From: Chitinolyticbacter albus
Lineage (GTDB): Bacteria > Pseudomonadota > Gammaproteobacteria > Burkholderiales > Chitinibacteraceae
Reading direction: 5' to 3'
Assembly: GCF_024437655.1 (NCBI RefSeq)
Contig: NZ_JANBVF010000009.1
Span: forward strand, 62,001-126,000
Length of the DNA stretch: 64,000 bases
Each line of letters begins with the position of its first letter. Position 1 is the stretch's first letter. The notes beneath the pieces were generated by a model. That model searched no databases and was not told the DNA's origin. It worked only from the letters and a program-made list of their open reading frames with translations. Positions 33,662-36,027 of the stretch are shown here, in pieces. The translations under genes were made by a program, and so were the position numbers.

Positions 33662-33984
33662 GGGCCTCTAGCTCATGTCGGTTAGAGCAGCGGACTCATT
33701 CGGAAAGAGTGACCTTCGCCAGAAATGGCGATTGAAAATCGGGTGAACTCAGGGAAACCTAAAGGCCGTTGGGCCCACGGCAATCCTGAGCCAAGCCGGG
33801 GCTACAGCTCCGGAAGGTGCAGAGACTAGCGGAGGGGTAGAGCCCCCTTAATCACCGCCTAGAGCGCCCGACATCTGACCGCGGCCACACGCCGGCGAAG
33901 ATGGTGAGATAGTCCAAGGTGGCAGGGAAACCCGCCGTAACTTGAATCCGTTGGTGCCGAGTTCGACTCTCGGGGGGCCCACCA
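33662..33984 (+). tRNA. ileX: tRNA-Ile(CAU) gene interrupted by an intron after the anticodon
   Basis: The exons are 33662-33699 and 33945-33984. Joined they fold as a complete tRNA with encoded CCA: acceptor GGGCCTC/GGGGCCC, D-arm GCTC/GAGC, anticodon stem GCGGA/TCCGT with loop CTCATAA, T-arm CCGAG-TTCGACT-CTCGG. The anticodon is CAT. Pairs C4-G69 and C5-G68, known determinants for lysidine synthetase TilS, and the overall likeness to E. coli tRNA-Ile2 favour the minor isoleucine tRNA, whose C34 becomes lysidine and which reads AUA codons, over tRNA-Met. Terminator hairpins follow. Without splicing the tRNA cannot function. Confidence 0.92.
33700..33944 (+). ncRNA. self-splicing group I intron (IC3-like) in tRNA-Ile(CAU)
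   Basis: The 245-nt insertion starts directly after the anticodon U36 and ends in the obligatory G at 33944. P1 forms from exon TCAT plus intron TC against GAGTGA with loop GGAAA, placing the conserved U-G wobble exactly at the 5' splice site. P2 is TCGCC/GGCGA; P3 CTCAGG (33748) / CCTGAG (33785) with J3/4 GAAACC; P5 GCCGT/ACGGC; P6a CCGGGGCT/AGCTCCGG. The guanosine-binding P7 is GACTA (33824) / TAGTC (33910) inside the motifs CAGAGACTAG and GAGATAGTCC. Layout and core closely resemble the Azoarcus tRNA-Ile intron. There is no homing-endonuclease frame. Confidence 0.92.
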
Positions 33985-33989
33985 AGATC

Positions 33990-34017
33990 AAAAGCCCCGG
34001 CTGCTGCCGGGGCTTTT
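33990..34017 (+). terminator. Rho-independent terminator of the tRNA gene
   Basis: The stem AAAAGCCCCGG / CCGGGGCTTTT begins 5 bp after the CCA end of the tRNA. Confidence 0.8.

Positions 34018-34083: not shown

Positions 34084-36027
<1,944 letters not shown>

Follow-up and report, generated by a model that had tools for sequence, protein, structure and literature searches.

A P7.1-bearing, probably group IA-like intron after the anticodon of tRNA-Ile(CAU) in Chitinolyticbacter albus, and introns of the same class in phages

Introduction

Group I introns are a known kind of insertion in bacterial tRNA genes. Among them is the IC3 intron of the Azoarcus pre-tRNA-Ile(CAU), which we take to be similar to the introns of Polynucleobacter, Gulbenkiania, and Propionivibrio. 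Both IA and IC3 are listed among the bacterial group I subgroups in a 2014 review (PMC3984707), according to which phage introns had until then been seen only in protein-coding genes; tRNA-Ile(CAU) genes themselves are known in phages (PMC1524935). Introns in the tRNA-Ile2 genes of Acidovorax and Burkholderia have been noted in the tRNAscan-SE 2.0 paper (PMC8450103), where the passage on these introns gives no subgroup, structure, or phage kinship. Neither introns in phage tRNA genes nor a split between a P7.1-bearing and an Azoarcus lineage turned up in a search of the openly licensed literature. Here, we describe a split tRNA-Ile(CAU) gene in a 64,000-nucleotide stretch of the Chitinolyticbacter albus genome (hereafter, the window) and compare its intron with those of other bacteria and of phages.

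Results

Location and identity of the split tRNA gene

A default tRNA scan of the whole window found no tRNA; ARAGORN in intron mode reported one tRNA with a 245-nt insert at positions 33662–33984. The Gln(UUG) identity that ARAGORN assigned to it was false, and the program displaced the junction. The splice sites were placed at 33699/33700 and 33944/33945 by exon folding and by the rule that a U precedes the 5′ splice site and a G ends the intron (...GGACTCAT/TCGGAA...AACTTG/AATCC, with slashes at the splice sites). When joined, the exons fold into a 78-nt tRNA with a CAU anticodon and an encoded CCA, and the insertion point lies directly after the anticodon, between positions 36 and 37. The initial annotation, which had described a group I intron right after the anticodon of a tRNA-Ile(CAU) gene and a cloverleaf that forms upon removal of the 245-nt insert, was exact to the base, as judged with the intron mode of ARAGORN and the Rfam model RF00028. 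Because the acceptor stem and body match those of the other betaproteobacterial Ile(CAU) genes compared, we read the product as a putative tRNA-Ile2 of the lysidine type; the elongator Met and initiator Met tRNAs were found separately in the same genome. The terminator-like hairpin downstream is absent from the list produced by the terminator scan, which demands a longer T run. Standard tRNA annotation overlooks or mislabels split genes of this kind.

Table 1. Features of the split tRNA-Ile(CAU) gene and its surroundings (window coordinates)
Feature	Position	Strand	Description	Basis
5′ exon of tRNA-Ile(CAU)	33662..33699	+	last bases are the anticodon CAU (positions 34–36)	ARAGORN, junction, exon fold
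Group I intron	33700..33944	+	245 nt, ORF-less, last base G	RF00028; exon folding and U...G rule
3′ exon of tRNA-Ile(CAU)	33945..33984	+	encoded CCA	ARAGORN, exon fold
Terminator-like hairpin	33993..34017	+	with a short T run, right after CCA (AGCCCCGGCTGCTGCCGGGGCTTTT)	read by eye
rpoD	34084..36027	-	neighbour kept in several relatives, intron present or absent	
P1	33696..33712	+	exon UCAU (33696-33699) with GUGA (33709-33712), U-G at 5′ splice site	alignment of 13
P2	33716..33731	+	33716-33721/33726-33731, GAAA loop, 6/6 pairs covary	alignment of 13
P3	33739..33871	+	33739-33745 with 33865-33871, 7 pairs, both-sided changes in 3	alignment of 13
P4	33748-33753/33785-33790	+		alignment of 13
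P5	33758-33759/33779-33780	+		alignment of 13
P6	33791-33792/33816-33817	+		alignment of 13
P6a	33796-33802/33807-33813	+		alignment of 13
P7	33824..33914	+	GACTA (33824-33828) with TAGTC (33910-33914), guanosine-binding helix, invariant	alignment of 13
P7.1-like hairpin	33829..33863	+	35-nt insertion between P7 5′ strand and P3′	alignment; T4 td comparison
P7.1-like outer stem	33829-33832/33855-33858	+	GCGG/CCGC	
P7.1-like inner stem	33833-33837/33844-33848	+	AGGGG/CCCCU	
P8 base	33872-33875/33900-33903	+		alignment of 13

Intron structure and covariation

The group I assignment of the initial annotation held against the covariance model RF00028, which matched positions 33688–33937 with 58.5 bits (E = 2.8e-12), exceeding the curated Rfam cut-off of 50 bits. 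The elements named in that annotation (the P1 U-G wobble, P2, P3, P5, P6a, the GACTA/TAGTC pairing of P7, and the terminal G) are all present; it did not include the P7.1-like hairpin, which lies after the 5′ strand of P7 and before P3′. In an alignment of 13 sequences, comprising the query, the second genome of the genus (G016), other bacteria, and phages, the P1 U-G at the 5′ splice site (13 of 13) and the P7 helix were invariant, and the P3–P8 and P4–P6 core showed covariation. P1, P2, P3, P4, P5, P6a, P8, P9, and the outer P7.1-like stem all emerged from an unsupervised consensus fold of these sequences, and 39 of its 64 pairs had changed on both sides. For the structure named on the query, 95.1% of cells were paired, compared with 80.3% in shuffles, none of which (0 of 500) reached the observed value; when this structure was slid by one to three columns, only 30–46% of cells were paired. 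It contained 107 double-change cells, compared with 35 in the control, and 26 of its pairs had changed on both sides. Pairing in the P7.1-like hairpin was lower (79% in the outer and 72% in the inner stem) because this region varies between the intron types and is offset by one base in the alignment. The fold energy of the lone precursor was slightly better than that of shuffles (z = −2.05 and −2.73), and as this margin is modest, the case for the structure rests on covariation rather than on energy. A search by eye revealed no clear P10.

Copy number and decoding of AUA

The 84-contig draft genome that contains the window (completeness 99.99) yielded 58 tRNA matches, in which the only other CAU tRNAs were the elongator and initiator Met tRNAs, and when the joined exons were used as the query, the sole high-identity matches were the two exons of the split gene itself, with no second Ile(CAU) copy found in the draft. 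The tRNA-Leu(UAG) gene was not found in this draft, probably because of an assembly gap, so the draft alone leaves room for a hidden Ile(CAU) copy. The one-contig G016 genome, in which tRNA-Leu(UAG) is intact (C1:3081206-3081236), supports the single-copy claim better for that reason: its sole Ile(CAU) gene is also split, and no intact copy was found there. Both genomes contain tilS. In the 45 long ORFs of the window, AUA accounted for 80 of the 17,566 codons and was spread over 32 of the ORFs. With no second Ile(CAU) gene found in either genome, AUA decoding should depend on the splicing of this intron, and the genome search thus bears out the initial annotation, which had made this dependence conditional on the lack of another copy.

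The host genome contains a second group I intron, of 225 nt and not mentioned in the initial annotation, which splits its tRNA-Leu(UAA) gene (G000:C2:172708-172955, L002), the only UAA copy found there, and the tree described below places it in an IC3-like clade. The tRNA-Leu(UAA) gene of G016 is likewise split, by a 229-nt group I intron (L175). UUA decoding would then be dependent on splicing too.

Occupancy of the tRNA-Ile(CAU) gene within the family

The split gene adjoins rpoD, and the similarity of this rpoD, together with the order-level search, suggests that the DNA comes from a Neisseriales-like betaproteobacterium. The two genomes of the genus (G000, which contains the window, and G016) have the present intron in the same position, and most of the differences between their copies lie in P5a, P8, and P9. 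In 34 of 43 genomes of the same family, the joined tRNA had a full-length, uninterrupted match (79–95% identity), and in the two uninterrupted loci whose flanks were read (G003 and G014), rpoD lay in the fetched stretch. In another member of the family (G013), this site of the locus is taken by an Azoarcus-type intron, and six others (G011, G012, and G039–G042) have a third kind of intron, of 251–273 nt, which precedes the anticodon and separates U33 from C34 (L170–L174 and L326). The G042 intron was missed by Rfam; it appeared as a gap in the joined-exon search and was then read in the flank. Three kinds of intron at the tRNA-Ile(CAU) gene of one family indicate that this gene has been entered repeatedly.

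A P7.1-bearing lineage separate from the Azoarcus type

A scan of named bacterial and archaeal genomes with a 16-base core pattern identified at least 119 stretches, and most of these, among the matches listed, lay in split tRNA genes; the rarity of bacterial tRNA group I introns, as stated in the initial annotation, needs qualification to this extent. Two layouts were observed among the matches listed: P3′ either follows P7 directly or is separated from it by a hairpin of approximately 30–40 nt. When the hairpin was cut out of the alignment before tree building, the P7.1-bearing introns still formed one group (98/94), and the larger split between the layouts received 100/98. The bacterial Ile(CAU) introns with P7.1 grouped together (94/95, or 99/97 without long branches), and the Azoarcus type fell in the other half of the tree. 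Forcing all Ile introns at 36/37 into one clade cost 57 log-likelihood units (p = 0.068, all rows), and a clade shared with the Ile introns of the Azoarcus type was rejected (p = 0.004, 55 units) after the removal of nine long-branch or oddly placed rows, which were picked after inspection of the tree, so that the two p values are to be read together.

Although the intron shares the insertion in tRNA-Ile(CAU) between 36 and 37 with the Azoarcus type, its P3′ does not follow the 5′ strand of P7 directly, and it does not group with that type (p = 0.004; all rows, p = 0.068). It is not an Azoarcus-type IC3 intron. The initial annotation had held that the arms differ from those of Azoarcus, which is correct but understates the extent of the difference, because the hairpin and the trees define a separate P7.1-bearing lineage. 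The hairpin is placed as in the T4 td intron, which is recorded as group 1A. In the tree that sampled terL and crAss-like introns of phages, these fall into one weakly supported group with the present intron (80/84). From the position of the hairpin and the similarity to phage introns, we infer that the intron is a member of a group IA-like lineage with P7.1, which occurs in tRNA genes of several phyla and in phages. Deeply separate intron lineages have thus settled at this one tRNA site on at least two occasions.

The present intron type (type B) was found in both genomes of the genus, in an Azonexus genome, and in G411 and G202. In a BLAST search of 399 genomes of the order, G000, G411, and G202 matched strongly and G209 only weakly; the G209 intron represents type C, the type found in Comamonadaceae, Variovorax, and Rhizobacter. 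A class-wide search of 369 genomes, with a pattern that would miss many variants, retrieved only the window's own genome. The tRNA-Ile(CAU) of L152 (about 1110–1340) is degenerate, and its type B intron has lost the 3′ part. An Elusimicrobia sequence (L153) resembled type B in its hairpin, but its branch was long and its placement uncertain. Among the matches listed, several bacterial phyla also had introns of the P7.1 type in genes for tRNA-Asn, -Phe, -Thr, and -His. Those in tRNA-Phe(GAA) were mostly from Patescibacteria-type records (L088, L102, L119, L129, and L143), and the tRNA-Asn(GUU) genes of two Pacearchaeota records (L053 and L062) contained group I introns.

Introns of the same class in phage tRNA-Ile(CAU) genes

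Phage introns outside tRNA genes were among the nearest DNA matches to this intron. A BLAST search of the intron against phages also matched Klebsiella jumbo phages (74% identity over 121 nt), and in Klebsiella phage Muenster (MT708547, L185 about 1453–1767), the unannotated match lay within a tRNA cluster. Direct reading of this region revealed a tRNA-Ile(CAU) gene in which the same site is occupied by an intron of 231 nt, to which RF00028 gave 104 bits; ARAGORN did not detect this tRNA, either split or joined, and we take it to be tRNA-Ile(CAU) from our own reading and its likeness to E. coli tRNA-Ile2. The split gene recurred in three more phage records with 99.7–100% identity over its full length, and in a fourth with 91% identity over 81%. 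Introns of the same class also occupied the same site of tRNA-Ile(CAU) in the viral contigs L208, L220, L310, and L314, making five phage or viral loci with the same site and hairpin class (RF00028, 59–104 bits). The viral label of these contigs comes from IMG/VR and is backed by PHROG matches for L208, L220, and L310; two large proteins of L314 had no PHROG match. Related introns occurred on three further viral contigs (L198, L211, and L269), in tRNA-Asn, tRNA-Lys, and tRNA-Thr. In one search, four of six viral matches were intron-less tRNA genes that matched via the 3′ exon. The intron had no BLAST match in plasmids, and a viral pattern search for the exact type B hairpin gave no match.

TilS-like proteins were encoded near the split gene in L220 and L314 (TIGR02432, 112 and 118 bits; cut-off 93.6). 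Both are approximately 215 amino acids in length and consist of the N-terminal domain only (L220, 2521–3165, minus strand; L314, 10273–10923, minus strand). A permuted tmRNA match was detected in L208 (10966–11310; 62 bits, cut-off 47), whereas the betaproteobacterial tmRNA match was below the cut-off; there is a hint that the host of L208 may be betaproteobacterial. In the tree that included phage introns, bacterial type B (96/96) joined a mixed phage group at 80/84, and the kinship of the two is suggestive only.

Discussion

Overall, we consider it very likely that the C. albus tRNA-Ile(CAU) gene contains a P7.1-bearing, IA-like group I intron that is spliced to give a normal tRNA and whose likeliest means of spread is exchange between phages and bacteria. 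As judged from its sequence, the intron is very probably a splicing-competent ribozyme. On the basis of the known group I mechanism, splicing would proceed in two steps. The exons of the transcript would fold as a tRNA, with the anticodon stem drawing the splice sites together; a guanosine bound in P7 would attack after U36 within P1, and the freed 3′-OH of the exon would then attack just beyond the terminal G. The product would be a normal tRNA, which TilS could modify with lysidine. A dead, unspliced pseudogene, with an intact tRNA-Ile(CAU) elsewhere doing the work, is highly improbable. The genome is a draft in which a tRNA-Leu(UAG) known from the same genus was not found, which gives this alternative some room; however, the one-contig G016 genome has no intact copy either, the exons build a complete tRNA including its CCA, the core helices are kept by compensatory changes, and AUA codons occur in most of the long ORFs of the window. 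Divergence of the arms of an ordinary Azoarcus-type IC3 intron, inherited vertically in betaproteobacteria, is also improbable, if less so. The shared tRNA and insertion site, the rpoD gene that adjoins several such introns too, and the all-row test, which fell short of formal rejection, speak for common descent. However, all seven Azoarcus-type sequences lack the 35-nt hairpin that separates P7 from P3′, P3 and P8 differ in sequence, the two types form separate and strongly supported groups, a single clade was rejected once the long branches were removed, and within the family, one member has the Azoarcus type at this locus whereas others are uninterrupted.

How the P7.1-bearing lineage spread is less certain. 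Exchange of tRNA-Ile genes between phages and bacteria appears to be the likeliest route, and we favour it slightly. The chances are about even that phages with a split tRNA-Ile(CAU), some of them with a lysidine synthetase, carry an IA-like ribozyme into bacterial tRNA-Ile(CAU) genes, at a site shared with the unrelated Azoarcus type. A bacterial origin of the lineage, with phages taking split tRNA genes from their hosts as sinks rather than vectors, would affect only the transfer part of this reading; it is a somewhat doubtful but serious alternative, given the introns of this type in tRNA-Asn, -Phe, -Thr, and -His of several bacterial phyla. Against it, the phage Ile introns are diverse and group, weakly, with protein-coding introns such as those of terL, which fits a long phage history. 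The split tRNA-Ile(CAU) genes of phages would provide a route of spread unseen by the 2014 review (PMC3984707). Two deeply separate ribozymes at one bond of one essential tRNA amount to convergent site choice and make the constraints on insertion testable. The host, in which both AUA and UUA decoding would need ribozymes, offers a natural system for the cost of splicing speed to the cell.

Compared with the known systems, the intron described here and the Azoarcus type have in common the tRNA, the 36/37 site, the group I core, their shortness, and, in several cases, the neighbouring rpoD, but the Azoarcus-type introns (202–223 nt) lack the P7.1 hairpin, differ in P3 and P8, and form a separate clade. 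The tRNA-Leu(UAA) introns, one of which is present in the same genome, are also group I introns in an anticodon loop, but occupy a different tRNA and site (34/35) and belong to the IC3-like clade. The introns that PMC8450103 mentions in the tRNA-Ile2 genes of Acidovorax and Burkholderia are probably our type C; these introns, which appear to be the nearest bacterial relatives of type B, also bear a P7.1 and occupy the same site, but their P7.1 is a different one and their P6a is larger. The group IA introns of phages (T4 td and those of Staphylococcus, Vibrio, cyano-, and crAss-like phages) likewise have P7.1/P7.2 as an additional domain separating P7 from P3′; however, they split protein-coding genes, several with endonuclease genes inside or nearby, whereas the present intron is short, lacks an ORF, and lies in a tRNA gene. 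The kind of intron is known, and what is new is its P7.1 lineage, the finding that one site has been occupied twice, and the link to phages.
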